Positions 1 through 14,022 of a stretch of DNA of 64,000 nucleotides are shown in pieces. The translations under genes and the position numbers were made by a program. Within the stretch, counting starts at the first letter, position 1; every line of letters begins with the position of its first letter. The stretch comes from Longimicrobiales bacterium (lineage in GTDB: Bacteria; Gemmatimonadota; Gemmatimonadetes; Longimicrobiales; Gaopeijiaceae), in contig JANQDZ010000016.1 in NCBI GenBank assembly GCA_028278645.1, positions 62,001-126,000 of the forward strand, read 5' to 3'. The notes under the pieces are model-generated. The model worked only from the letters and a program-made list of their open reading frames with translations, was not told the DNA's origin and made no database searches.

Positions 1-25
1 TCCGGCAGCTCGCGAGGTGTTAGGC
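1..25 (+). repeat. attC-like site A, right half only
   Basis: The window opens inside the right arm. The end GTTAGGC (19-25) matches the integron core-site consensus GTTRRRY exactly and follows GGCAGCTCGCGAGGT. It is the best-preserved core of the series and would mark the left boundary of the acetyltransferase cassette. Confidence 0.6.
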
Positions 26-89
26 GGCCAGGTGGAGGATTCAAGATACGAAATTCAGAGCGTAATACTTAAGGAGGAGGTCACCGCTG

Positions 90-590
90 ATGGTGATACG
101 TGGATACAAATCGTCTGATCTTGAAGCGTGCAGAAACCTCTGGGCGGAGATGACTCAGCGCCACCGAGAGATCTACGACGATTCAAGCATCGGGGGCGAT
201 GATCCAGGATTGGAGTTCGACGGCCATCTATCCCAGGTTGGTCCGGCCTTAATCTGGGTAGCAGAAGCCGATCAAGAAGTTGTCGGATTCGTGTCCCTAA
301 TCCATAAAGGGGAGGAAGCTGAGATTGAGCCAATCGTCGTCAGATCCGACGTTCGCGGCGGTGGGATTGGCTATCAGCTAGTTGATCACGCCGTGGACGA
401 AGCCGGAAAGCTCGGTGTGCTTTGCCTTAGCGTAAATCCTGTCGCCAGGAACGAGGCGGCAATCTCGTTTTTCTACGACGCCGGGTTTCGCAAAATGGGA
501 CACATTCAGCTCTTTAAATGGCTTGGGGATTCCTTTCCTGGCCAATGGAAAGAGGGCCTCGAGATGTATGGCAAGAGCTTCGAATATTGA
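90..590 (+). CDS. GNAT family N-acetyltransferase
   Basis: A 166-residue single-domain acetyltransferase of the GNAT fold, predicted to move an acetyl group from acetyl-CoA to an amine. The acetyl-CoA loop is visible as VVRSDVRGGGIGYQLVDHAV (R-G-G-G-I-G, around residue 90), followed by the usual NPVARNEAAISFFYDAGF segment, where AISFFYDAGF is the family's late helix and strand. The ATG at 90 follows AAGGAGGAGG with about 10 nt spacing. The gene sits alone between attC-like sites A and B, which is a normal cassette layout; acetyltransferases are common integron cargo. The substrate cannot be told from sequence. Confidence 0.85.
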   Translation: MVIRGYKSSDLEACRNLWAEMTQRHREIYDDSSIGGDDPGLEFDGHLSQVGPALIWVAEADQEVVGFVSLIHKGEEAEIEPIVVRSDVRGGGIGYQLVDHAVDEAGKLGVLCLSVNPVARNEAAISFFYDAGFRKMGHIQLFKWLGDSFPGQWKEGLEMYGKSFEY

Positions 591-637
591 CCGGGACGGT
601 CTTACCGTGGGTGACCGCCCAAGACACCTGGCCGACA

Positions 638-767
638 GCATAACAGCGGGTTTGCTGCGGTTCGCCTTTGGCTCGCGCCTTACGGGCCATTCACCTGCGG
701 TCACGTCGTTTGTATGAGGTAAACGGCGCGCCCTCGGCGACTGCCGGCAGCCCGCGAGGCGTTATGA
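638..767 (+). repeat. attC-like site B (130 bp)
   Basis: The left end GCATAACAGCGGG (638-650) pairs with the right end CCCGCGAGGCGTTATGA (751-767): the outer CATAAC/GTTATG and inner GCGGG/CCCGC boxes are separated by an unpaired spacer on one side, as in R and L boxes of attC. The GTT triplet (761-763) is intact. The interior resembles sites D and G. It separates the acetyltransferase from tatC. Confidence 0.65.
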
Positions 768-803
768 GAATGGTCTTAGAACACTTCACCGAGGGAGTAG
801 GCT

Positions 804-1706
804 GTGGAGAATAGAGGGAAGAAGGACCAATCCGGTGAAATGCCGTTCTTGGATCATCTGGAAGAACTTCGGTGGCGCATCATTTGGTCGCTGGTTGCGA
901 TCGTCGGCGGGTTTGGGGTTGGTATCTGGTTGGTCATTCAATTCGGCATCATCGACCTCCTCAATGCTCCACTCTACTCTGCCCTCGCCGCCGCCAAAGA
1001 GGTGAACCCTGACTTCGGCTTTGGCTTGGCTTCTGACCGACTCTTCTTCTCCAACCTGACCGAACCTTTCTTCTTCGTCCTGAAGCTGGGGCTCCTGACC
1101 GGGCTCGTCCTTTCTTCTCCTGTGATCGGGTATCAGGCCTGGGCTTTCCTCTCTCCTGCTCTCGAACCGAAAGAGCGACGGGTTATCATCCCCAGCCTTT
1201 CGTTCGGCGTGATCCTGTTCTTTCTGGGCGCTTGCTTCGCCTACTTCCTGGCCCTGCCCGGAACCGTCCGGTTCCTACTTCTGTTCGGTGCGGAGTGGTT
1301 CAGCCCCATGATCACGGGCGGGCCCTATTTGGCTCTGACGATCCGCCTTCTGTTCGCTTTTGGTTTGGTGTTCGAACTCCCCATCGTAGTGTTAATCCTC
1401 TCCGTACTGGGCCTGGTGACCCCGGAATTCCTGCGAGAGAAGAGACGTCACGCCATCGTCGGGATCACGATCCTGGCGAGTGTGCTGACCCCCACCGACG
1501 TGGTGACGATCACCCTCATGCTGATGGTGCCGCTGATAGTGCTCTACGAAATCAGCATCGCTCTGTCCGCGGTCGTAACGCGGCGGCGGAAAGAAAGCTC
1601 AGGAAAAGACGTGGAAGGAATGGACCAATCGGTGCCGGTGGTTCTCGCCTTCTTGATACCTGTTGCACGCTGGCGTGCGCGGGCCATCGCCAGCCCCGGT
1701 GGCTAG
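804..1706 (+). CDS. tatC: Sec-independent protein translocase subunit TatC
   Basis: The polytopic inner-membrane receptor of the twin-arginine translocase, which binds RR signal peptides and exports folded proteins together with TatA/TatB. The 300-residue product covers the whole family: FLDHLEELRWRI at residues 15-26 (the N-terminal E-L-R signature), then SPVIGYQAWAFLSPALEPKE, and six hydrophobic segments ending near residue 250. The last 45 or so residues are a basic, non-conserved tail. The GTG start has GAGGGAG just upstream. It begins 37 bp after the core of site B and is followed by site C, so it occupies a cassette position. No tatA or tatB gene is present in the window. The family call is secure; the claim that it is cassette cargo rests on the flanking repeats. 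Confidence 0.93.
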   Translation: MENRGKKDQSGEMPFLDHLEELRWRIIWSLVAIVGGFGVGIWLVIQFGIIDLLNAPLYSALAAAKEVNPDFGFGLASDRLFFSNLTEPFFFVLKLGLLTGLVLSSPVIGYQAWAFLSPALEPKERRVIIPSLSFGVILFFLGACFAYFLALPGTVRFLLLFGAEWFSPMITGGPYLALTIRLLFAFGLVFELPIVVLILSVLGLVTPEFLREKRRHAIVGITILASVLTPTDVVTITLMLMVPLIVLYEISIALSAVVTRRRKESSGKDVEGMDQSVPVVLAFLIPVARWRARAIASPGG

Positions 1707-1771
1707 TGGGCATGATCCTCACACGATCACCCGAGTATGGCTATCGGATAGGCCAAGGGGATACGCCATTC

Positions 1772-1949
1772 TTCTAACCGCGGGCCGTACCCCGCGCTCG
1801 TTTCACTCGCGGTCCTTCGCCGGTGACGGTTCATGTGGGAGAAGCATCATACAGGTGGCGGCTCCGGGTCCTTCACCTGCGGTCACGCCGTTTGCTTCGG
1901 CAAACGTCGCGCCTTTCGGCGAATGTCGGCAGCGCGCGAGGCGTAAGCC
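1772..1949 (+). repeat. attC-like site C, hybrid and degenerate (about 178 bp)
   Basis: The left end is TTCTAACCGCGGGCC and the right end GGCAGCGCGCGAGGCGTAAGCC, where the core GTT has become GTA. The left interior (CCTTCGCCGGTGACGGTT) matches site E, and the right interior (CACCTGCGGTCACGCCGTTTG) resembles sites B and G, so it looks like a fusion of two site families. With the flanks it fills the 298 bp between tatC and the next gene. Confidence 0.5.
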
Positions 1950-2004
1950 GAAGCCCAGATGTCACGAAAGGACTGAGAACCCGCCAAACCTCGGAGGGGG
2001 AACG

Positions 2005-3177
2005 ATGATTGGCATCCGCGCATGGAGTCTCAGCATTCTCTTGTCATGCTGGCTCCTCGGTGGCTGCGGCGCCGAAAAAGAGAATCCGGCAGCGCAAACC
2101 CCGTCTGGGACGCCAAAGGCAATTGCTCCGGAGCCGAACCTCAGCCTCGGCGTGGCAGCAGGGGATGCCATCCAAGAGTTTTACGAAGTCAGGACTCCCT
2201 TCGTCATGCCGGGGGGCCGCCTGGCCATCCCTCTGAAGGGGACCGGCGAAGTCCGGGTGTTCGGCGGAGAGGGGGAGATCCTTAAGAGCTTTGGTCGTCG
2301 TGGGGAAGGCCCGGGTGAATTCGCCGCCCTCACCGCGGCATGGGCGCGAGGGGACACCATTGAGGCCCTGGACGGGGATTTGATGAGAATCACTCGCTTC
2401 TTCCCCGATGGCCGCACCCAGGTGATACGACTCGACGCCGATCGCAGGGGAGACACGGCTCCACGGGGTGCCATTCCGGGGGGATGGGTAACCGTTGGAT
2501 TCGAGGGCTTCGCAGAGTCTGGCCGGGATCTGTGGTCTCTTCAACTATTCGAGAAAGACGGGGCCCTGACCGGCGAGCTGGCACAGCTCGAAGGCATAGC
2601 TAGGATCTCCGTACCTGGTTACTCCGGCGCCCACCCTCTTTCACCCCGAGCCGTGCTTCGGGCGGCCCAGGGGCGACTCTACCTAGCCGAGACCCTGACC
2701 CCCCGAATCCAGGTTTTGAGTCTGGCCGGTGGGGTCGAGCGCGAGATCTCGTGGGAGACTGAGGAGTGGTTAACCCCTCGCGAGGCAATGTCGCTGGTTC
2801 GTGAGGCGGCCACGTCTGGGGATACTCCGGATCACGTCGCCGGACAGCTTCTTCGAACCGACGAGATCCCATCCCGAATGTCTGTGTTTTGGGACTTCCT
2901 GGTAGACGAACTCGGGTTCATCTGGATTCGTTCCTACGATCCGGTCAAGCACTCGTTTTCCTTCGTCAGGTTTCTCGGTGGTGGGTACATTTCAGGTACT
3001 TCTGGGGAGGGTGGGGCATGGCGAATCTTCTCTCCTGAAGGCGTGGAGGTAGGGGTGGTTGAGGTCCCGGAGGGCCTCGCCCCGGCGCAGATTACGCGTG
3101 ACGCTTTGGTCGGGATACGGACCGACCCGGCCTTAGGGTTCGAGTCCGTCGAAGTGTACGCATTGACGCGGTATTGA
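2005..3177 (+). CDS. Six-bladed beta-propeller lipoprotein (paralog 1)
   Basis: Function unknown. A 390-residue predicted lipoprotein: the signal peptide ends in LLGGC with Cys21 as the lipidation site, followed by a disordered linker and a repetitive beta-propeller domain with repeats of the NHL/6-bladed type. The family motif FGRRGEGPGEF lies at about residues 96-106 and the closing strand VEVYALTRY is at the C terminus. The ATG at 2005 follows GGAGGGGG; the open frame extends further upstream, but only through attC-like site C. It is one of five related genes between 2.0 and 9.0 kb. Such proteins are frequent in Gemmatimonadota and Bacteroidota and have no settled role. Confidence 0.75.
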   Translation: MIGIRAWSLSILLSCWLLGGCGAEKENPAAQTPSGTPKAIAPEPNLSLGVAAGDAIQEFYEVRTPFVMPGGRLAIPLKGTGEVRVFGGEGEILKSFGRRGEGPGEFAALTAAWARGDTIEALDGDLMRITRFFPDGRTQVIRLDADRRGDTAPRGAIPGGWVTVGFEGFAESGRDLWSLQLFEKDGALTGELAQLEGIARISVPGYSGAHPLSPRAVLRAAQGRLYLAETLTPRIQVLSLAGGVEREISWETEEWLTPREAMSLVREAATSGDTPDHVAGQLLRTDEIPSRMSVFWDFLVDELGFIWIRSYDPVKHSFSFVRFLGGGYISGTSGEGGAWRIFSPEGVEVGVVEVPEGLAPAQITRDALVGIRTDPALGFESVEVYALTRY

Positions 3178-3217
3178 ACGCGGCTGCTCTCCCTTCAAAT
3201 GGAGTTGATTGGACTTC

Positions 3218-3344
3218 AGCAAACAGTGGGCCTGTCGCGGCTCGCCTTTGGCTCACGCCCTACTGGTCATTTTCGGCGGTCACGCCGCTTGCGGGGACAA
3301 ACAGCGCGCTCGTCACGAAGGCTGGAGCCCGCCAGGCGTCACAT
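3218..3344 (+). repeat. attC-like site D (about 127 bp, degenerate core)
   Basis: The left end AGCAAACAGTGGGCC and right end GAGCCCGCCAGGCGTCACAT align with site B along most of its length, including GGCTCGCCTTTGGCTC near the left. The core triplet is GTC instead of GTT, so recombination competence is doubtful. It separates beta-propeller paralogs 1 and 2. Confidence 0.5.
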
Positions 3345-3408
3345 AACCCCTGAAAACGGGTTGGTGCCTGATGCTGGTCTCAGGCGGAACTGGAGAGTCG
3401 AAAACAAC

Positions 3409-4671
3409 GTGATAGGACGATCAACCGGCGCGGCGTGCCTTCGTGACGCAGGGTGGATCTTCCTGGTTCTCCTGGCATCCGGAACTAGTGCATGTTCAAC
3501 CGGAGACTCGTCGGAAACCTTCGTTGTGTGGGACAGTGCTGGGATCGCCATTGTGGAGACGTTCCGACCCAGATGGGAGCGGGAAGCGCCTTGGAGGATT
3601 TCATCGGATCCCATCCTTGAGATAGGCTCCGCCGGCGGAGAAGAGGCTCAACAGCTCTACGGAGTGACTGGGGTCCGGCGGCTCTCCGATGGTAGGATTG
3701 CGGTCCTGAATCAGGGGAGTCTGAGCGTCCGTGTCTTTGGAGTTGATGCACGAATTGAGAGAGAGTTTGGAGGCGAGGGGGATGGCCCCGGTGAATTTCG
3801 CGCATTGACTTCGCTCCAGGTCTTGAGAGGAGATACCCTCTTGGTCTGGGATGTGCGTCAACGCAGACTTTCCTTCCTGTCCTCATTTGGGGGATTCCTG
3901 AGTTCGATCCGGCTAGATTGGGCTGGCGCAGAACAGCTTACCGAGGTCCGACGGATGCCGGATGGACACTTCATCGGGAAGACGTACGCGAGTCCGTTTC
4001 CACGCGGTCCGAGTTCTGGCCTCGGCATCCACCGACGTGTGGCTCCTCTCCTCCGTTTTGATGAATTCGGGTCAGTCTCAGACACCATCGGAGTCTTTCC
4101 GAGCGTTGAAGGAGCCATCGTGCACCTGGACGGACACCCACTGATGATGGATGCTCCCTTCGCGAAGAATTTCTACTTCGATACTCGGAACGAATCGATC
4201 GTGGTTGGAACAGCTGATGGCGTGTCGGTCCAGGTATGGGATGCCACCGACGGCCTGCTGTCCGTGTTCCGATACCCAGGCCTCGACCTGACCGTCACCC
4301 AAAAGGCTCGGGATGCCTTTTGGGGATCGGCGTTGAGAGGCGATCTGAGCCCCGAACAACGGCGGGAGACAACCGAGATTCTCCGAGCTCTGCCTTTCCC
4401 AGAAACTCGAGCCGCCTTCACCGAACTGAAGCTTGATCCCGTCGGGAACGTCTGGCTGAAGACGGGGGGATACTTGGCCAATTCGGAGGCGCCGGACGAG
4501 TGGACGGTATTCTCTCCGAATGGCGAGATGTTGGGGATCCTCTCCCTTCCGAAGGACTTCACGGTTCTCGCGATCAACAACGATGAGATCCTCGGGGTGT
4601 GGGAGGATCGGATGGGCGTCGAATTCGTCCGGGTCTATGAACTATCGAAGGCAGGGGCTCTAGATTCCTGA
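3409..4671 (+). CDS. Six-bladed beta-propeller lipoprotein (paralog 2)
   Basis: Function unknown. From the GTG at 3409 (GGAGAG about 12 nt upstream) the product has 420 residues, with a hydrophobic segment and a lipobox ending SGTSAC (Cys29). Next comes the family opening WDSAGIAIVE, the phrase DPILEIG near residue 70, and the motif FGGEGDGPGEF at residues 120-130; the closing strand is VEFVRVYELSK. The frame is open back to 3199, but that stretch lies in attC-like site D and lacks a signal peptide, so the upstream ATG is rejected. It is closest to paralog 5, which has the same predicted length and the same motif order. Confidence 0.75.
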   Translation: MIGRSTGAACLRDAGWIFLVLLASGTSACSTGDSSETFVVWDSAGIAIVETFRPRWEREAPWRISSDPILEIGSAGGEEAQQLYGVTGVRRLSDGRIAVLNQGSLSVRVFGVDARIEREFGGEGDGPGEFRALTSLQVLRGDTLLVWDVRQRRLSFLSSFGGFLSSIRLDWAGAEQLTEVRRMPDGHFIGKTYASPFPRGPSSGLGIHRRVAPLLRFDEFGSVSDTIGVFPSVEGAIVHLDGHPLMMDAPFAKNFYFDTRNESIVVGTADGVSVQVWDATDGLLSVFRYPGLDLTVTQKARDAFWGSALRGDLSPEQRRETTEILRALPFPETRAAFTELKLDPVGNVWLKTGGYLANSEAPDEWTVFSPNGEMLGILSLPKDFTVLAINNDEILGVWEDRMGVEFVRVYELSKAGALDS

Positions 4672-4683
4672 GAATCACGTGCC

Positions 4684-4822
4684 ATGTAACAGCCGTCATG
4701 CCGCACATTCGCTCCGCTGGGGAGGCCTTCGCCGGTGACGGTTGTGCGTTGAGATGCGTCGTACAGAGGGGCAGCTTTCGGTCCCGGCTTTCGGCCGGTC
4801 CGGCAGCCCGCAGGCGTTTACG
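4684..4822 (+). repeat. attC-like site E (139 bp)
   Basis: The left end is ATGTAACAGCCGTCATGCCG and the right end GGCAGCCCGCAGGCGTTTACG with GTT intact at 4816-4818. The right-hand interior contains CGGCTTTCGGCCGG, which is shared with site H (CGGCCTTCGGCCGG). Sites E and H form a second family distinct from B, D and G. Confidence 0.55.
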
Positions 4823-4833
4823 GAGACCGATCT

Positions 4834-6162
4834 TTGGATGTTGAAAACATGCCGAGGATTGCTGTGAGAGACGAAGAAGGAACCTCCTTCGCCGCTGCTG
4901 AGGCAATCGGCTGCTTCGATAGGCTTTGTACCTTCGCTCACCCGACGTGGAGACATCTTTCCTGCCTGATCCTGTCGATCTGCTTTTCGGCCATCGCCGG
5001 GTGCGGCGGGGGGATTCCCGGCATTCAGGAGTCCCTTCTCGATGGGCTACCAGTCTTGACGGTAACAGAAGACCTGCGGATAGGGAGCGTGGAAGATCCT
5101 GACTATGGGTTCTCACGGATCAGGGGAGTGGAGGTAGACCGAGACGGGAGACTGTTCGTTGGGGAATCCCTCGTGGGGGAGATCCGGGTTTTTGATTCGG
5201 ACGGGACCCTTCTCAGGAGGATCGGGCGGAAGGGGGAGGGCCCGGGTGAGTTCCAGCAGCTGTTTCAGTGGGGCGTGGTGGGCGACACCGTTTGGGTGAC
5301 GGACTTTTTCCTCCGAAGAATCACACTGTTCGAAAGAGCGGGGACCTTGTTGTCCACGGGAATCTGGGAGGGGGTCACCGTGCCACACGGAACCTCGGGA
5401 AGCGCTAGCTCGGTAGGCCCCTACTCCATGAGGGTCGACGGTCTTTTCCGGGGCGAGATCACGGAGGTCGCCCAAAGGATGGGCGGCGCTCCCTCCGAAG
5501 ATTCGCTTCGTGTGCCCGAAGTCCTGTTTGATGCTTCCGGTGTTGTGGTCGATACCGTGGGATGGGATGTCTTTCCCCCGCCGGCAGAATCCCGAGCGAC
5601 GCGGGTGAGTGTCGGGTCAAGGAACTACCCGGTGCCTCGGCCACCCACGGGGACCGTGCCACGGTTGGGGTTCCCAGCCGGAGAGTGGATCGTCGACCGG
5701 CACCCGGCGCAGGCCGACTCCCTCTCCAACCTCAAGATCACGCGCCTAGGGTTGATGGGCGACACCATCGTTTCCCGGGAGTACAGGTATCAGCCAAGGC
5801 GGTATCCGGATGTGATTCTCGATTCCATTGCAATGCGGTACGTTTCGGCCCGGCCCTCCGCCCGAGGTACCGATCCTGACCGTGTGCGCCAGGCCATCCG
5901 CGATGCCATGGATTTCCCGGATTTCCAGCCTCCGGTTCTGGAGGGTGTCGCAGGTTCCGACGGAACTCTCTGGCTGCGGCGGGAAGACTTGGGAGGGCGT
6001 TTGTCTCGCTGGCTCGTCATTGGGCCCGACGGCACCCCACGAGGCCATGTGGAAATACCCCGTCATTCCACGGTTTCCTGGGTGGGGGAGGGGGTGTTCG
6101 TAGTGGTTGAGAAAGATGAGTTCGATGTGCCGTGGGTGGTGCGGTTCAGGATTGGGGACTGA
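4834..6162 (+). CDS. Six-bladed beta-propeller lipoprotein (paralog 3)
   Basis: Function unknown. The 442-residue product has an unusually long N-terminal region before a hydrophobic segment ending FSAIAGC (Cys57), which I take as the lipobox. The motif IGRKGEGPGEF follows at about residues 127-137, and the end VVRFRIGD resembles the closing strand of the family. In-frame starts are ATG 4834 and ATG 4849; neither has a strong ribosome site, and I see no later start before the hydrophobic segment. The start lies 12 bp after site E, so translation signals are compressed against the recombination site. Confidence 0.7.
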   Translation: MDVENMPRIAVRDEEGTSFAAAEAIGCFDRLCTFAHPTWRHLSCLILSICFSAIAGCGGGIPGIQESLLDGLPVLTVTEDLRIGSVEDPDYGFSRIRGVEVDRDGRLFVGESLVGEIRVFDSDGTLLRRIGRKGEGPGEFQQLFQWGVVGDTVWVTDFFLRRITLFERAGTLLSTGIWEGVTVPHGTSGSASSVGPYSMRVDGLFRGEITEVAQRMGGAPSEDSLRVPEVLFDASGVVVDTVGWDVFPPPAESRATRVSVGSRNYPVPRPPTGTVPRLGFPAGEWIVDRHPAQADSLSNLKITRLGLMGDTIVSREYRYQPRRYPDVILDSIAMRYVSARPSARGTDPDRVRQAIRDAMDFPDFQPPVLEGVAGSDGTLWLRREDLGGRLSRWLVIGPDGTPRGHVEIPRHSTVSWVGEGVFVVVEKDEFDVPWVVRFRIGD

Positions 6163-6220
6163 GGTTCCCCGAAGAGCGACTCTCCCGCGAAAAGCAGAAC
6201 CTTGAATGAACGTCGATCTC

Positions 6221-6278
6221 GGTTAACAACGAGCCTGCAGCGCACTCGGCTTCGCCGCTAGCCCGCGAGGCGTTAACT
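6221..6278 (+). repeat. attC-like site F, short form (58 bp)
   Basis: The left end GGTTAACAACGAGC pairs with the right end AGCCCGCGAGGCGTTAACT; GTTAAC occurs on both sides and the core triplet GTT (6272-6274) is intact. The interior is a small hairpin, CGGCTTCGCCG. At 58 bp it matches the length of the shortest classical attC sites, which are about 57-60 bp. Confidence 0.65.
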
Positions 6279-6366
6279 GAAACCACCAAAGAGATTTATG
6301 GAAGCCCATTCAGCAGGGGTCCTCCGGCGTTGGAATTCCTGAAGTGAAGGAGAGGAGGAACAGAGG

Positions 6367-7509
6367 ATGAGCGGAGTCCCATTCGGCAAGTTTCTCTGGC
6401 TTTTCCTTTCGCAGTCTGTATTGGGGGTGGGAGGGTCTTTTCAGGAGGCCGCACTATCTGACTCTTGTACGCTCGTCGTTGAGCACCTCGCTGACTTGGG
6501 TGCTCTGGATGATCCTGCATCGGTGGTAATCCCGATGAACGTGGATCTCGCCGGTGTGCCGTGGGGTGGATGGTTGGTGACGGAGGATGGAAAAGAAATC
6601 CTGGAGTATGCTGACGACGGTGCCTTCCGACGTTTTTTCGGAAACCGCGGCGAAGGCCCGGGTGAGCTTAGCCATCCCAATGCTGTTGAAGTGGACCCTT
6701 CCGACTCCGTGTGGATTTCCAACAGGCGAGGCCGGTCAGTAGTCTTCGCCCCGGATGGAACGGCGAGCCGGACCATTGTCGATCCCGGACTCCGGCAGAT
6801 CACTAGCTTCACCCCTTCGGGGCTTCCTATGACACTATTGCTGAAGGTAGCAGCGAAAGCCCAGCCATCTCCCTCAGAGTTATGGCCGTTCGTGCAGGTG
6901 TGGAATCGTGACTTGGAACCGATTCACCTCATCGGTCCTGGGGCTTTGGTTTCCGAGGGACCTGAGATCATGGTGTTGGGTGTAGGAAACCCGCCCCAGT
7001 GCGCCGTCTCCAATGATTCCACCCTGTTCTTCCCGCTGGGTGGGGAGAACTCATTCGTGAAGTGGACCCCAACCACTGTAGATACCGTACCTTTTCCAGA
7101 TTCTCCGTGGACTAAACTCGGCCTGCAGGCGGACCGAAAGCCAGAACCGGGAGACCGTTTGGTGGCTCTGATTCCGGATGGAGCAAGTGGATTCTGGGGG
7201 CTGGGAGCGATCCGGCGATTGTCGGAGGAGGACGAGGAGGAACTTGTGCGAAACGCCCCTCAGCCGGGGATCCAGACTATGGATTCCTTCAAGCGCGCTT
7301 CAGCGGCCGTCCGAAACGCCGTCTACGATGGTTGGCTAGGTCATCTGACGGCGGGAGGGAAGGTCACCGAGGCGGTGGTGTTTGAGGAGTACCCGTGGGG
7401 TTTCTCACGGCCGGGGGAGTTTTTCACCTTTGACGAAAACGAGAACGGCCTTGTCCGCGTGAGGGTCTGGAAGTTCACGAGGTCCTGTCCCATGGTCGGA
7501 CGATCCTAG
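6367..7509 (+). CDS. Six-bladed beta-propeller secreted protein (paralog 4)
   Basis: Function unknown. A 380-residue product that begins with a hydrophobic signal sequence but, unlike its relatives, shows no lipobox cysteine at the expected place, so it may be periplasmic or secreted rather than lipid-anchored. The family motif is FGNRGEGPGEL near residue 95, with NAVEVDPSDSVWISN as a following blade. The ATG has an AGGAGAGGAGGA-type ribosome site. It is the most divergent of the five paralogs: the usual DPVLEIG phrase is missing and the C terminus is VRVWKFTRSC. It lies between sites F and G. Confidence 0.68.
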   Translation: MSGVPFGKFLWLFLSQSVLGVGGSFQEAALSDSCTLVVEHLADLGALDDPASVVIPMNVDLAGVPWGGWLVTEDGKEILEYADDGAFRRFFGNRGEGPGELSHPNAVEVDPSDSVWISNRRGRSVVFAPDGTASRTIVDPGLRQITSFTPSGLPMTLLLKVAAKAQPSPSELWPFVQVWNRDLEPIHLIGPGALVSEGPEIMVLGVGNPPQCAVSNDSTLFFPLGGENSFVKWTPTTVDTVPFPDSPWTKLGLQADRKPEPGDRLVALIPDGASGFWGLGAIRRLSEEDEEELVRNAPQPGIQTMDSFKRASAAVRNAVYDGWLGHLTAGGKVTEAVVFEEYPWGFSRPGEFFTFDENENGLVRVRVWKFTRSCPMVGRS

Positions 7510-7529
7510 GGCAGGGTGTTCGTGGTTTC

Positions 7530-7658
7530 AGTTCACAGCGGGCCTGCCTAGGCTCGCCCAAAGGCTCGCGCTCTGAGGGTCATTCGCGGCGGTCACGCCG
7601 CTTGCAGGGGCGGGCGCCGTGCCCTTGGCAAATGTCGGCAACCCACGAGGCGGTATCA
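7530..7658 (+). repeat. attC-like site G (about 129 bp, degenerate core)
   Basis: The left end is AGTTCACAGCGGGCC and the right end GGCAACCCACGAGGCGGTAT; the core triplet reads GGT instead of GTT and the left AAC has become CAC. The interior has CGGCGGTCACGCCGCTTGC, shared with sites B and D. It separates paralogs 4 and 5. Confidence 0.5.
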
Positions 7659-7705
7659 GGCGAGCGGCCCAAGGTTCGAGGAGCCAAGAAATGGAGGGAA
7701 ACCCA

Positions 7706-8968
7706 ATGCGCCGGATCACCCTAGTCTCCCTTACGTTTGTCTATTCGTCCTTCGCTTGCACGGAGTCCGTCTCGATCCCACCGGGCGTGTCTGTGCGGGA
7801 CAGCGCGGGTATCCAAATCGTTCATTCCTCACAATCAGTCTGGGAGTCCACCGGCCGGGGTTGGGTTGTTTCCCCCGATCCGGTCTTGGAAATCGGTGTC
7901 TTGGAAGGGCCGGACGAGTACCTCTTCTCCTCGCTGGTAGATGTCCAGCTCGGGCGGGGAAATCAGGTTTGGATAGCCGACAGAGGGATCAACTCCATCA
8001 GAATCTTCGAAGCAGACGGCACGCATCTTCGATCGACTGGGGGAGAAGGGGAGGGGCCCGGGGAGTTCCAGGCCCTGGAGGGATTCCTCCGAGTTCCTGA
8101 CGGTCTGATTGGGTATCAGGGCGCCCATGGACCCGCGAGCCTCTTTGACCTCTCTGGCTCGTTCCAGCGGACGATAAGCTTCGATGCCAGGCCGGAAGTG
8201 CGTGCGCCTTTTGTGGTGGGGACAGTCGAAGAAGAGACGGGTGTCTGGGCAGTGATCTCCCACTACCCTCAAGGCCAACAGGGTCGTACGGGCTTGTACG
8301 AGGATCAGATGCCGGTGTATGCCGATCTGCTGGAAGCGGATTCCGTCAGGGACTTCGGCCTCTTCACCGCCAGTCGGTTTGTGGGCGTTCCGGGACGCAG
8401 AGGCACGCCTCATTGGCAGGAGTATGGGCCATTCTTCACGATGGCAGTCAGTGCAACCCACCTTTTCTTGAGTTGGCCGGTGGAGTACTCCATCTCTCAA
8501 ATCGACACCGGTGGGCAGGTGGTGAGGATCCTCCGCCGTGATTGGGATCCATCACCGGTCGCCGAGGATGACCGACAGAAGTTCGTGGCGTCCCAACTCA
8601 CTTTCCCTGAAGGTAGGCAACCTCCACCGCCAATCCTGGACTTCCGTCGCCAACTGGTTGATGCCATGGTGTACCCGGAGCATCATCCGCCGCTTGACCG
8701 GCTGTTGGCAGACTCGGAAGGGAATCTCTGGGTTCGACAACATGAGCCCCACCGGCGCTTCGTGTCGGCTCAAAGCCCGCGAGTCCCGGCGGAAAGGACC
8801 GTCTGGGATGTGTTCGATCGGTCCGGTAGATGGTATGGCTCGATCTCACTCCCCGAACGTTTCCTGGCCACATGTATCACCAATGACCGCATTGCAGGGA
8901 TCTTCCTCGGGGAGTTCGATGTCGGATATGTGCGTGTGTATGCAATTGAGAAACCTGGTGGCGAGTGA
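7706..8968 (+). CDS. Six-bladed beta-propeller lipoprotein (paralog 5)
   Basis: Function unknown. From ATG 7706 (GGAGGG 6 nt upstream) the product has 420 residues and a short lipoprotein signal ending SSFAC (Cys18). The opening VRDSAGIQIV, the phrase DPVLEIG, the motif TGGEGEGPGEF and the closing VGYVRVYAIEK correspond point by point to paralog 2, so the two are recent paralogs by family standards. An alternative ATG at 7691 adds five residues with a weaker ribosome site. It lies between sites G and H. Confidence 0.76.
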   Translation: MRRITLVSLTFVYSSFACTESVSIPPGVSVRDSAGIQIVHSSQSVWESTGRGWVVSPDPVLEIGVLEGPDEYLFSSLVDVQLGRGNQVWIADRGINSIRIFEADGTHLRSTGGEGEGPGEFQALEGFLRVPDGLIGYQGAHGPASLFDLSGSFQRTISFDARPEVRAPFVVGTVEEETGVWAVISHYPQGQQGRTGLYEDQMPVYADLLEADSVRDFGLFTASRFVGVPGRRGTPHWQEYGPFFTMAVSATHLFLSWPVEYSISQIDTGGQVVRILRRDWDPSPVAEDDRQKFVASQLTFPEGRQPPPPILDFRRQLVDAMVYPEHHPPLDRLLADSEGNLWVRQHEPHRRFVSAQSPRVPAERTVWDVFDRSGRWYGSISLPERFLATCITNDRIAGIFLGEFDVGYVRVYAIEKPGGE

Positions 8969-9053
8969 AGGCGGCGACGCTCTCGTCAGGGGTGGGTAAG
9001 GGTGGCACAAGTTTTTCACCCGGGTGTGCTTGATCGGTGCGACCACACCCGCC

Positions 9054-9193
9054 CCATAACAGCGGTCATGCCGCACCCTCGTTGTCGATCGTAGTCCTTT
9101 GCAATGCACGGTTTCGGGCGGAGAAACATCATATTGATGGACGGCTCTGGGCCCCGGCCTTCGGCCGGTCCGGCAGCCCGCGATGCGCTATCC
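9054..9193 (+). repeat. attC-like site H (140 bp, degenerate core)
   Basis: The left end is CCATAACAGCGGTCATGCCG and the right end GGCAGCCCGCGATGCGCTAT; the core triplet is GCT instead of GTT. It aligns with site E over both ends. It sits inside the 383-bp stretch without a gene (8969-9351); the remaining 85 bp before and 158 bp after it show no further gene or clear promoter. Confidence 0.5.
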
Positions 9194-9351
9194 GCCACGA
9201 CGAAACCACCAACACAGGTGACGTGCGAGAAAAAGGGTTCCACGGAACCTCCATCGAAGGAACCCGGACCTTTAAGCCCGGTTAAGAAACTCAGTGAGGA
9301 ATCCGGGACCATACTCGGACCCGTACCATAGGCAAGCCTCAGGACCGACAA

Positions 9352-11892
9352 ATGCACTCACGCAGTTTGGCGCGATCCACTTCGAACAGGGTAACGACGC
9401 AGTTCCCGCTTGCCTCCCTCCTCGCCTTCCTGGCGATTCTTGTGACGGGCGTCTTTGATCCGGGCTCTGCACAGGCCGCCCATGGACAGCTCATCGATGC
9501 TGATACGCGCAACCCAGTAGAGGGCGCGTTGGTGGCTCTCATCGGTGCTGACGGAACGGTCCAGGACCAGCGGCTCACGAACGCCGACGGCCGCTTCCTT
9601 CTCCGGGGCCAGGGAGCCGGTAGGTTTACCCTTCGGGCTGAGCGGATCGGGTTCCGATCAGTGTCTTCCGGTCCTTTCCGTCTCGCAGCTGGCCAGCTCT
9701 TACGCATCGACTTGGAAACGGGGCGGAACGCCATTCAACTGGATGGCATAACTGTGCACGGAGAGCAGCGGTGCGTGGTCCGCCCCGGGGAGGGGCTGGA
9801 GATCGCGCGGGTTTGGGAAGAGGCCCGAAAGGCCCTGGCGATGCAACGTTGGACGGAGCAGGAGGGCAGCTACTGGTTCAAGGTTCAGAACTACTCCCGT
9901 GACCTAGACCGCGATGCCCGCAGGGTCCTGGCAGAATCCCGCAACACCAGGGCCGGCCTCTCTCAGAATCCCATCGGAAGCCTACCGGCAGAAGATCTGA
10001 TGACCGAAGGCTTCATTCAGAGGAATCCCGACGAGTCCCTTCAGTACTATGGCCCCGATGCCTCGACGCTCCTCTCGGACATCTTCCTCGACAGACATTG
10101 TTTCCAGTTAGAAACGAACGAAGACGAGCCCGACCTCCTGGGCCTGGCCTTCGAGCCGGTGGAGCGAAGGGACATCCCGGACATCCAGGGCACCCTTTGG
10201 CTTGAGCGGAGCTCTTCGGCCCTGCAGTTCCTCGAATACCGGTATACCTGGGCCCCGCACCCGGACGCGCGGAGATTAGCCCGGGGGAGAGTGGATTTCG
10301 AGGAGCTCCCCAATGGAGCTTGGATTGTCCGGAAGTGGTGGATCCAAATGCCACAAATCGGGAGAGAGGAAGCCCGGTTCGACCGGAGGGAACGTCCGGG
10401 AATCGGGGTGGTCGGCATTCGGGAGACCGGCGGGGAGATCGTCGGGATCAGGACTCAGGATCAGCAGGAGGTGTCCAGGGCGGAGAGAGGCCTGGTAGCG
10501 GGGTTGGTCTGGGACAGTACCCGGGCCGCTCCCCTGGGAGGGGCGAAGGTCTACCTCTTAGGCACGTCCTACGCTGGCACCAGCAACGCGGAAGGGCAGT
10601 TCCTCATTGACGGTGTTCCCGAAGGTGTTTTCCGAGCCACCTTCACCCACCCACGCCTGGATACTCTGGCGACCCTGGGCACGGGCATGGAGGTCGAGGT
10701 CGCTCCCGGCAAAGCGTCGGAGATCCGGCTCGCGGTCCCTTCCATCGCTAGCATCATCTCCGAAGTGTGTGCCGATAGATCGCGAGAGGACGCCTCGGGC
10801 GTCATCCGGGGGCGGGTTCTGGACACGGAGACCGGCCGGCCCGTTCCGGAAGCGTCGGTGAGCCTCACCTGGCAGGTGGTCTCCCGCCCATCCGGGTGGC
10901 TGAGGGGGGATGACATGATCATCGAAACCACGACGGATGACCACGGTCGCTTCACGGTCTGCAACACTCCGGCCCAGGAACTCATTGAGATCCAGGCGAA
11001 AACCGACGAGGGCAGGAGTGATATCCTGAGGTTTCAGATCGAAAGGGATTCCTACACCACCATCGGCCTCGAGGTAAACCCGGACGCTGGAGTTTCGGTC
11101 TCTGAGCGCGGTGTTGCGGCTCCAGGCGACGTTGGCGTCCGAACCGTGCGTGGACAGGTTCTGGACTCTGTCGCGGGGACTCCGGTGAGCTTTGCGCGAG
11201 TCACGCTTGTCGACGAGGACGAACAGCAAGTCGCGCTGACGGTTTCCGATGTCCAGGGTCGTTTTCGGCTTCAGGCTTCAGAGCCAGGTCGTTACCGGCT
11301 GACGATCCAGGCGGAGTTCTACGAGGAAGGGTCCCATGGGCCCATCACTCTGACCGACGAAGAAGGGCTTGCCCTTACCGTCGAACTCAACCCTCTCCCC
11401 GTCGAGTTACGAGGGTTTGTTGTAGACGTCGAGCGGCAGTCCCCCCGTCTGGCCTTGGAGGGGGTCTACGATCGGATGACCCACGGTTTTGGCAACTACT
11501 TCGACCGGGAGAAGATCGATGCCCGACCGGGGAGGCCGGTGATCGACCTCATCGCTCAGCTGCCTATGGTGGGGTTCTTCCCCGACACCCTGGGTGGGGG
11601 CGAGGGAGTTTTCTTCAGACACAGACAGTTCCAGAGGCTGATCATTCCTCAAGAGAAGGTTCCTATCTGCTTCCCCCAGGTGTACCTCAATGGCGCCCTG
11701 TTCGCACCGGGAGGAGAGTTCCCTTCAAGGCTGGACCGTGTGTTCCTCGACGATCTCGAGGCCATCGAGGTCTACGAGTCGCCGGCCTTCCTTCCCGGGC
11801 GGTTCAACGGGATCAATTCCAAGTGCGGCACCATCGTGCTCTGGACTCGCGGGGAAGAAGAGGCTTGGTCGCAGGAAGTGCCAAGCGAATGA
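9352..11892 (+). CDS. Carboxypeptidase-regulatory-like and TonB-plug-like secreted protein
   Basis: Function unknown. An 846-residue exported protein with a signal sequence ending near GSAQAAHG. At least three carboxypeptidase regulatory-like (transthyretin-like) beta-sandwich units are visible: GQLIDADTRNPVEGALVAL near residue 44, GVIRGRVLDTETGRPVPEAS near 483, and TVRGQVLDSVAGTPVSFARV near 600. The last 170 residues look like a TonB-receptor plug (LDDLEAIEVYESPAF, then CGTIVLWTRG), but no beta-barrel follows. The middle segment, about residues 130-370, is the type often seen in Gemmatimonadota proteins of this kind. It may be a surface or periplasmic binding component; this is inference. 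It lies between sites H and I. Confidence 0.7.
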   Translation: MHSRSLARSTSNRVTTQFPLASLLAFLAILVTGVFDPGSAQAAHGQLIDADTRNPVEGALVALIGADGTVQDQRLTNADGRFLLRGQGAGRFTLRAERIGFRSVSSGPFRLAAGQLLRIDLETGRNAIQLDGITVHGEQRCVVRPGEGLEIARVWEEARKALAMQRWTEQEGSYWFKVQNYSRDLDRDARRVLAESRNTRAGLSQNPIGSLPAEDLMTEGFIQRNPDESLQYYGPDASTLLSDIFLDRHCFQLETNEDEPDLLGLAFEPVERRDIPDIQGTLWLERSSSALQFLEYRYTWAPHPDARRLARGRVDFEELPNGAWIVRKWWIQMPQIGREEARFDRRERPGIGVVGIRETGGEIVGIRTQDQQEVSRAERGLVAGLVWDSTRAAPLGGAKVYLLGTSYAGTSNAEGQFLIDGVPEGVFRATFTHPRLDTLATLGTGMEVEVAPGKASEIRLAVPSIASIISEVCADRSREDASGVIRGRVLDTETGRPVPEASVSLTWQVVSRPSGWLRGDDMIIETTTDDHGRFTVCNTPAQELIEIQAKTDEGRSDILRFQIERDSYTTIGLEVNPDAGVSVSERGVAAPGDVGVRTVRGQVLDSVAGTPVSFARVTLVDEDEQQVALTVSDVQGRFRLQASEPGRYRLTIQAEFYEEGSHGPITLTDEEGLALTVELNPLPVELRGFVVDVERQSPRLALEGVYDRMTHGFGNYFDREKIDARPGRPVIDLIAQLPMVGFFPDTLGGGEGVFFRHRQFQRLIIPQEKVPICFPQVYLNGALFAPGGEFPSRLDRVFLDDLEAIEVYESPAFLPGRFNGINSKCGTIVLWTRGEEEAWSQEVPSE

Positions 11893-11923
11893 GTGGGCGT
11901 GCCAGACGGCTGATCCTCGTGGC

Positions 11924-11997
11924 TCATAACAGCGGGCTGTGCCGCCAAGGCGAGTGCTCTTCGGCCCAGCTCTCGAACTCCCCAGAAAGGCTTAGAA
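11924..11997 (+). repeat. attC-like site I, strongly degenerate
   Basis: The left end TCATAACAGCGGGCTGTGCC is a near-perfect left arm, but the right end (CCCAGAAAGGCTTAGAA) has lost most of the consensus and the core reads CTT. It ends 2 bp before the start codon of the RCC1 gene. It is probably a fossil or truncated site. Confidence 0.4.
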
Positions 11998-11998
11998 A

Positions 11999-13087
11999 AT
12001 GTACCGAATGCCGCGCGTTGGATTGAACCTACTGGTGATTCTAGGCCTGACCGCTTGCGACAGTGACGCGACGGGCCCGGAGTTGATTCCTTTGTCTTTC
12101 ATCTCCGTGGACGTCGGCTACGACCACACCTGCGGTGTGGCTACCAATGGTGAAGCCTACTGCTGGGGCCTGGGCCAAGCCGTTCCGACGCTGGTTTCCA
12201 CGGACCTGGTCTTTTCGAGCCTGAGCGCTGGTACGGACCTCACCTGTGGCGTGACCCCAGTGGGAGAAACCTACTGTTGGTCCGGGTTCAGTCCGGATCC
12301 CGAGTTGGTTCCGGGAGGCTTTCGTTTCGACCAGGTGAGCGTGGGCCTACTCCACCGATGTGGGGTGACCACAACCGGCGAGGCCTACTGCTGGGGGCTG
12401 GGGTACGCCGGCCAAATCGGGGACGGGTCGACGGAGGAGAGAACTGAGCCGACCCTGGTTTCGGGCGATATCACCTTCTCGACCGTCAGCGCTGGGCATG
12501 AACATACCTGTGGGGTAGCTACCGACGGGAAGGCGTACTGTTGGGGCCAGGGTTTCTTTGGCCAGCTCGGGAACGGGTCAAAAGAAGACAAGCTGGTTCC
12601 GACCTTGGTGTCAGGCGGCTTCATTTTCACGGAGGTGAGCGTCGACCAACGCCATAAGACCGCAAACCACACCTGCGGGGTAACGACGGACAGCGAAGCA
12701 TACTGCTGGGGAGGGAGCGATCACGGCGAGCTCGGGATTGGGGTAGGACAAGCCTACGAGGCGACACCTGCCTTGGTGCTAGGTGGCCACGATTTCGCCT
12801 CCGTGAGTACCGCCGCTGACCACACGTGCGGAGTAACCACGGGCGGGGAAGCCCTTTGTTGGGGAATGGGCGGGCTCCTGGGGAACGGGTTGGAGGAACA
12901 GAGTTTGGTTCCTACGCCGGTTTCGGGTGGCCTAAACTTCGAATCCCTAAGTACTGGCTGGCAGCACACCTGTGGAGTGACGACAGGAGGAGAGGCTTAC
13001 TGCTGGGGAGCCGGCGGGGGACGACTCGGGAACGGGACGGGGGACTCTAAGCTTGTGCCCACGAAAGTGTCTGATGGTATGGGATGA
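11999..13087 (+). CDS. RCC1-repeat lipoprotein
   Basis: Function unknown. A 362-residue lipoprotein with a short signal ending LGLTAC (Cys18). The rest is seven RCC1-type repeats of about 45-50 residues, each with a core like HTCGVTTGGEAYCWG. Seven repeats would close a seven-bladed propeller. Each repeat carries a Cys pair (CGV and YCWG), which suggests disulphides outside the cytoplasm. Bacterial RCC1 proteins occur in Gemmatimonadota and Myxococcota; their ligands are unknown. A GAAAGG ribosome site lies within degenerate site I. The stop overlaps the next gene's start (ATGA), implying joint translation. Confidence 0.82.
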   Translation: MYRMPRVGLNLLVILGLTACDSDATGPELIPLSFISVDVGYDHTCGVATNGEAYCWGLGQAVPTLVSTDLVFSSLSAGTDLTCGVTPVGETYCWSGFSPDPELVPGGFRFDQVSVGLLHRCGVTTTGEAYCWGLGYAGQIGDGSTEERTEPTLVSGDITFSTVSAGHEHTCGVATDGKAYCWGQGFFGQLGNGSKEDKLVPTLVSGGFIFTEVSVDQRHKTANHTCGVTTDSEAYCWGGSDHGELGIGVGQAYEATPALVLGGHDFASVSTAADHTCGVTTGGEALCWGMGGLLGNGLEEQSLVPTPVSGGLNFESLSTGWQHTCGVTTGGEAYCWGAGGGRLGNGTGDSKLVPTKVSDGMG

Positions 13088-14022
13088 ACGGGGTGACGGG
13101 AGCTGGGCCCGAATCTGCGGATAGGAGATTCCAGCAACCCACTTCGGAGGTTTCGTTGTTCATCGAATTCAACGGATTTCCACGATACCTGAGAGGTCGG
13201 CTTCCCGGGGTCGGCGCCTTCGTGCTCCCATTCCTGGCTTGCGCTCTCCTCCGGCCGACGGCTACGGAATCTCAGACCGTTTCCGGTCGCCTCATCGACA
13301 ATGAAACCCGCCGAGGCGTGGTGAATGGAACGGTGGCCCTGGTAGACACGATGGGAATTCCCGTGGCACGCGTCCTTTCGGGTTCCGACGGGGAGTATGT
13401 GGTCAGGGCGCCCAAGCCTGGGCGCTACACCCTGAGGGGGTCCGGAATGGGATATCGGGGGGGGCTTTTGTCCCAATTGGATCTGGCTGAGGGAGATGAG
13501 GTGCATCTCGATCTCTACCTGGCACCGGCCCCAATCGCATTGGAGCCCATATCTATCACCGGTAGCCGGGTCCGACAGGAGCTAGAGCGACAGGGGTTCT
13601 GGCGGCGAAGAGAGGCTGGGACCGGGTTCCATCTGACTCCGGGTCAGCTTGCCTTCAGGCCCCCGGTGACCGAAGCCGAGCTCATCGGTCGAGCCCCCTT
13701 CGTGTACCTTGACCGGGTCACAAGATGGGACGGAACGATTCCCAAGATGCGGTCATTCGGCGAGGAGTGTGTACCGGCGGTCCTGGTGGACGACATCCCA
13801 GTGCCGGTGGGCCGACCGATCGGGATCAATGAGCCACCGCCGACCCTGGAGGAATACGTGAACTTCGCCGACATCACCGCTCTTGAGGTCTATAGGGGTT
13901 TCGGCGAGATACCTCACGAGCTGACGCTCCCGTTCGAGAGGTGCGGGGTGATCATGATCTGGACTGTTTGGAGCGAAGGCCGGAACAGGATTCGAAGGCC
14001 GCCACGGGATGATCCGCGGTAG
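13084..14022 (+). CDS. Carboxypeptidase-regulatory-like and TonB-plug-like protein, short form
   Basis: Function unknown. A 312-residue protein with an N-terminal hydrophobic segment (about residues 39-62), one carboxypeptidase regulatory-like domain (SGRLIDNETRRGVVNGTVAL to YTLRGSGMGYRGG) and a plug-like tail. The tail contains VLVDDIPVPVG, ADITALEVYRG and CGVIMIWT, matching the tail of the 846-residue protein at 9352, but there is no outer-membrane barrel. The ATG overlaps the stop of the RCC1 gene by 4 bp, so the two are likely co-translated and may work together. No attC-like element follows. It is the last gene of the accessory region. Confidence 0.7.
   Translation: MNGVTGAGPESADRRFQQPTSEVSLFIEFNGFPRYLRGRLPGVGAFVLPFLACALLRPTATESQTVSGRLIDNETRRGVVNGTVALVDTMGIPVARVLSGSDGEYVVRAPKPGRYTLRGSGMGYRGGLLSQLDLAEGDEVHLDLYLAPAPIALEPISITGSRVRQELERQGFWRRREAGTGFHLTPGQLAFRPPVTEAELIGRAPFVYLDRVTRWDGTIPKMRSFGEECVPAVLVDDIPVPVGRPIGINEPPPTLEEYVNFADITALEVYRGFGEIPHELTLPFERCGVIMIWTVWSEGRNRIRRPPRDDPR

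Follow-up and report, generated by a model that had tools for sequence, protein, structure and literature searches.

Does the left part of this window hold an integron, and if so, which recombinase would have moved its cassettes? The window, by which we mean the whole 64,000-nucleotide stretch analysed, corresponds to C50:62001-126000 of assembly G000 (4.91-Mb, 103 contigs, 95.6% complete). A preliminary description had proposed an integron-type cassette array at 1-14022, made of nine palindromic elements (A-I) alternating with genes, in a Gemmatimonadota-like host. The phylum guess was right, because a genome of the same genus is named 'Gemmatimonadetes bacterium Site_A17'. All nine elements lie where they had been placed, and the array is larger than was first described.

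Extent of the array

We found 28 attC-like sites on C50:40969-73930, all on one strand. The last nine fall in the window, and the array starts 22 kb to the left of it. The proposed span held for sites A-I; the last half-site lies at ~11930. An array of gene-plus-attC units in a single orientation is a criterion for an integron, and it is met by these 28 sites together with the unit-end complementarity described below. The analysis confirms that a chromosomal integron on C50 has its distal third at window positions 1-11930, and we are nearly certain that the attC sites and units of C50 form an integron array. The features of this distal third are the following.

1..22, +, attC site A (C50:61853-62022), site 20 of the array; only its right end, which carries the core GTTAGGC, is inside the window, and the left part is 5' of it
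90..590, +, GNAT acetyltransferase, cassette gene (Pfam PF00583)
642..764, +, attC site B: R'' TAAC, L'' GCGGG.., L' CGGCAGCCCGC, 5-nt spacer GAGGC, R' GTTA; 97 bits (in the training set)
804..1706, +, second TatC, cassette gene (PF00902; 51% identical to the other tatC at C62)
1776..1946, +, attC site C, 67.8 bits, outside the training set
2005..3177, +, secreted 6-bladed propeller family member, cassette gene (similarity cluster, alignment A2 search)
3222..3341, +, attC site D, 68 bits
3409..4671, +, propeller family member, cassette gene (similarity cluster, alignment A2 search)
4688..4819, +, attC site E, 104 bits
4834..6162, +, propeller family member, cassette gene (PF17170; similarity cluster)
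6225..6275, +, attC site F, short form (51 nt), 44 bits
6367..7509, +, propeller family member, cassette gene (similarity cluster, alignment A2 search)
7534..7655, +, attC site G, 77.5 bits
7706..8968, +, lipoprotein-like propeller family member, cassette gene (PF17170; similarity cluster)
9058..9190, +, attC site H, 109.7 bits
9352..11892, +, 846-aa CarboxypepD_reg / TonB-plug-like protein, cassette gene (PF13620, PF07715)
11928..11990, +, site I, left half only (TAACAGCGGGCTGTGCCG), without a right end, where the array stops; pairing between this end and the H-I cassette start covers 10/14 positions

Beyond the last half-site, window positions 11930-14022 encode an RCC1 protein and a CarboxypepD_reg protein whose cassette status was not shown. 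The two genes at 11999-14022, the first an RCC1-repeat lipoprotein-like gene, could possibly be eroded cassettes.

Sequence and structure of the attC sites

The right ends of eight elements resemble GGCAGCCCGCGAGGCGTTA, with D and E fitting only with an indel, which bears out the shared 19-nt right end of the preliminary description; the GTT core it had placed at the right end of site A was also seen. Across the whole genome, this 19-nt pattern (<=3 mismatches) was found 27 times in forward and 3 times in reverse orientation, compared to once in a backward-read control. The sites met the R''-L''-L'-R' attC architecture, with an extra L'' base in most of them. Because RNAalifold on a MAFFT alignment failed to show the R/L stem, we counted the named structure instead, and found this stem paired in 85% of cells vs 24-46% in slid controls, in line with the proposed R-box and L-box pairing.

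A covariance model, which had been suggested as a check, was built from 18 of the sites. With a threshold of E 0.01, it recovered 36 sites in the genome: 25 on C50, 5 on C38, 2 on C71, 2 on C97, 1 on C9, and 1 on C26. Untrained sites were among them, and the top C38 site, absent from training, reached 132 bits. An Rfam scan of the window gave no matches. The second suggested check, folding the bottom strand as single-stranded DNA, was strong for the first array site (z -5.4) and weak for most others, including most window sites. Folding energy alone is therefore no proof, and we instead take cassette-specific end complementarity as the proof.

Several observations lie outside this argument. 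A second, shorter attC-like family (about 80-100 nt) is common to C38/C71 and the Site_A17 contigs (L014, L016, L038, L039). On C97, two attC-like sites (30.9 and 76.4 bits) lie upstream of a large serine recombinase gene (L036:6417-9682) and share its strand. Absence of the extrahelical base from short-type attC sites was suggestive at several loci, but the C50 sites carry the extra L'' base, and we do not claim it. Occurrences of the same attC 19-mer in Omnitrophica, Streptomyces, and Lentibacillus contigs look like chance.

Cassette units and their turnover

Over ~15 nt, each unit begins, from its GTTA core, with the reverse complement of the stretch that ends at its own AAC. Beyond the core, the two ends of a unit agreed on average at 8.85 of 14 positions; all other pairings gave 4.5, and the two boxes within a single site 5.1. 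None of 20000 permutations reached the own-end value (best permutation, 6.26). The F-G cassette ends agree at 13/14 positions, and those of the tatC cassette at 11 of the first 13 nt. The gene and its downstream site are therefore the unit of recombination, and such complementarity is what a circular cassette with paired R boxes should leave behind. We had considered extended complementarity as a special feature of these arrays and dropped it, since class 1 resistance cassettes also have complementary ends, over 11-13 nt; for the same reason we use it as evidence for cassettes and not as a novelty.

The first unit starts at C50:39650 (GTTAACCGGCACCG) and matches its own end at 14/14 positions. 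This boundary lies 366 nt past the recombinase stop, and we place attI at about C50:39650 because the first unit begins there; attI itself is not recognisable by sequence.

The nuo region is 86% identical between the window genome and the Site_A17 genome. Among the matches listed, those between the array contigs of these two genomes were confined to attC-like elements (about 70-180 nt, 73-90%), and no cassette gene aligned at E 1e-15 in blastn. Shared attC elements without shared cassettes at this level support the reading as a cassette array and, as far as nucleotide alignment can tell, demonstrate cassette turnover between species.

Cassette cargo

The cargo had been described as mainly envelope and secreted proteins, which holds. 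What had not been foreseen is that most of it is one paralogous family: 16 of about 25 cassette genes belong to a diverged secreted 6-bladed propeller family (PF17170 in part) with a median identity of about 27% between paralogues. This family has at least 77 matches genome-wide, about 28 of them on the attC-bearing contigs C50, C38, and C71 and many outside attC contigs. An integron storing mainly one diverged secreted propeller family is unusual in its cargo. The rest of the array includes SnoaL and CarboxypepD_reg proteins. The second cassette (C50:41122-41729; L009:11122-11729) encodes a Doc (Fic) toxin and a MazE-like antitoxin on the opposite strand to the other cassettes. Toxin-antitoxin cassettes are typical of sedentary integrons, and this cassette, together with the presence of other attC contigs, supports the integron reading.

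Two further loci are recorded here as observations. About ten propeller-family gene matches cluster at G000:C75:59420-86297 without attC-like sites at the model threshold. The attC-bearing contig C38 carries a gene with CAP12/Pycsar-type TIR and Cpn60-like chaperonin domains (L014:14918-16987), a possible defence gene.

The recombinase at the array head

A tyrosine recombinase gene lies at C50:38364-39284. It is flanked by the nuoN terminator and the inferred attI and shares the strand of the cassettes. Its product is an IntI/XerA-like tyrosine recombinase without the additional (I2) domain of IntI. It scored 208.4 bits against TIGR02249, under the curated cut-off of 265, and so does not meet this criterion for IntI. 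Its best PDB match was V. cholerae IntI4, of which residues 189-233, which we take to be the stretch holding the I2 domain, are replaced by four residues. The distance from the box I Arg to HxxRH was 92-102 in 34/34 short recombinases vs 133 in 10/10 IntI, and 94-100 in Xer. The integron criterion of an intI with the additional domain is thus not met at the array head. No canonical IntI over the TIGR02249 cut-off was found in the window genome, a 95.6%-complete draft, nor in two other genomes of the genus.

The C50 gene is also 5'-truncated by roughly its first 55-70 codons, and its product is therefore probably dead. The syntenic recombinase of Site_A17 is 82% identical with an intact N-terminus, and its contig ends inside the gene. 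An intact short recombinase is readable across overlapping contigs C54/C29; no array was found beside it. The preliminary description had inferred that an integrase once moved these units and had suggested a search for intI and attI in the genome left of the window. A recombinase beside the inferred attI, 5'-truncated in this genome, fits this inference. That it is not a canonical IntI, and that the genome lacks one, had not been foreseen, and recombination remains an inference.

I2-less recombinases at other arrays

Counting C50, I2-less recombinases stand at the head of attC arrays at no fewer than nine loci, spread over eight genomes and several genera. attC-like elements lie downstream on the same strand at G022:C1, G006:C1, G031:C38, G353:C15, G365:C121, G365:C133, and G339:C213; at G020:C29, only the end pair of the first unit was seen before the contig end. 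Where it could be placed, the first unit starts about 150-760 nt from the short recombinase. End pairs of 11/15 or better numbered 32 (C50 included) vs 6 in a reversed control. In G006, the 5.9 kb that follow the short integrase contain 6 of the genome's 9 attC right ends.

A model of this genus's attC (R1) gave no match to the attC sites of G006 or G022. Judged by sequence, attC families are lineage-specific, so we recognised the G006 and G022 arrays by unit-end complementarity and their own repeats. The first units downstream of the short recombinase in L056, L059, L069, L074, L076, and L081 start with GTTAnnCGAAAC or nearly so, maybe a conserved attI junction. Contig breaks fell within 2 kb downstream of short recombinases at 23 loci vs 6 upstream, but we dropped them as evidence because IS91-linked members were mixed in.

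The recombinases that head arrays belong to two clades (100/99 and 99/99), apart from one further member. In tree tests, monophyly was rejected neither for the non-IS91 short recombinases nor for all I2-less ones (p-AU 0.48 each). These trees do not resolve the order in which IntI, the IS91-linked, and the array-linked recombinases branched, nor whether I2 was gained in IntI or lost elsewhere; 'ancestral' and 'derived' are therefore equally open.

Alternative explanations

The C50 array could be a CALIN, a group of attC sites without an integron integrase (PMC9024848). A canonical IntI, since lost or encoded on an unassembled contig, would then have built it, and the short recombinase would be an unrelated neighbour. 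As in a CALIN, there are many attC sites and further attC-bearing contigs but no canonical IntI in the genome, and the criterion of at least two attC sites without IntI nearby is fulfilled to the letter, provided that the short recombinase does not count as an integrase. Canonical IntI occurs in 20/78 relatives and in 5/8 array-bearing genomes (G020, G022, G031, G339, and G365), so that action in trans or a lost IntI cannot be excluded in those five. The assembly is an incomplete draft, the recombinase is truncated in the window genome, and about eight non-IS91 short recombinase loci with at least 0.7 kb downstream had no array. Against this stand the repeated same-strand placement of attC-like elements downstream of short recombinases across genera, the lack of any IntI over the cut-off in the closed genome G006 and the drafts G353 and G000, and G022, which carries both types of recombinase with disjoint attC families at the short and IntI loci. 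Moreover, unlike in a CALIN, the attI end of C50 has an IntI/XerA-type tyrosine recombinase whose place is conserved in the same-genus genome. We consider the CALIN explanation unlikely, though it cannot be set aside.

The homology of so many cassette genes, and the family's abundance outside attC contigs, could instead suggest tandemly duplicated secreted propeller genes split by REP-like hairpin repeats and never moved by a recombinase. However, the paralogues are strongly diverged while the attC ends are near-identical, unrelated genes (TatC, GNAT, SnoaL, Doc/MazE) are interspersed, and same-genus arrays have attC but, at blastn level, no genes in common. Unit-specific end complementarity, unexpected for REPs and present in class 1 cassettes, strongly disfavours this explanation, which we find barely credible. 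Hardly better placed, and very improbable in our view, is an IS91 origin, in which the short recombinase would be an accessory recombinase of IS91 type and the array would have been assembled within IS91-like rolling-circle elements. The nearest out-of-phylum relatives found are indeed I2-less accessory recombinases, 45% identical, immediately upstream of IS91 transposases (annotated or by tblastn) on Pseudomonadota plasmids. Yet IS91-linked short recombinases form their own clade (99/96) with tnpA directly downstream and no attC arrays found there, and array-headed loci had no IS91 transposase match, so the criterion for an IS91 accessory gene is not met. We also observed I2-less tyrosine recombinases immediately upstream of IS91 transposases within Gemmatimonadota (L063-L068, L080, L087-L090). 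Viral contigs yielded no relative of the short recombinase.

A sedentary integron with a proposed I2-less integrase

We hold with reasonable confidence that C50 carries a sedentary chromosomal integron with the I2-less lineage as its proposed cognate integrase, although no recombination was shown. About 27 cassettes, each a gene with its downstream attC, would have been inserted successively at attI just 3' of the recombinase gene, through recombination of the folded attC hairpin by the resident recombinase, a step that is inferred. As the C50 recombinase has lost its N-terminal part, this integron is probably frozen, or else another recombinase serves it in trans. Its cargo consists mainly of diverged secreted propeller proteins; a spare tatC, an acetyltransferase gene, and a toxin-antitoxin pair are stored with them. 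Like the Vibrio superintegron and the megaplasmid integron of Gemmatirosa kalamazoonensis (PMC9024848), it combines a one-orientation attC array and complementary cassette ends with near-identical attC, diverse genes, and a toxin-antitoxin cassette. Unlike these, its integrase lacks the additional domain and lies on the same strand as the cassettes, its cassettes are long (up to 2.7 kb), and one secreted paralogous family dominates the cargo.

Integrons were already known in Gemmatimonadota (PMC8618304). Both the activity of IntI and its recognition of the folded attC strand are described as depending on the additional domain; IntI1 is inactive once this domain is deleted, and no other protein is said to contain it (PMC7790495). 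Its origin has been called a chicken-and-egg problem (PMC4792948), with intermediates noted as missing (PMC7790495). We found no report of I2-less integron integrases in the open-access literature, and one elsewhere is not excluded.

It is likely, though cassette movement is only inferred, that I2-less recombinases are the cognate integrases of such arrays in this phylum. Whether Gemmatimonadota carry a natural integron class run by I2-less tyrosine recombinases, either a pre-I2 survivor or a lineage that dispensed with I2, we regard as an even chance. If this is true, a part of the surveyed CALINs may be integrons with an unrecognised integrase, and tools that need an IntI-specific profile would presumably call such arrays integrase-less CALINs. 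Natural attC arrays headed by I2-less recombinases, including one in a closed IntI-free genome, make the question of the origin of I2 testable.
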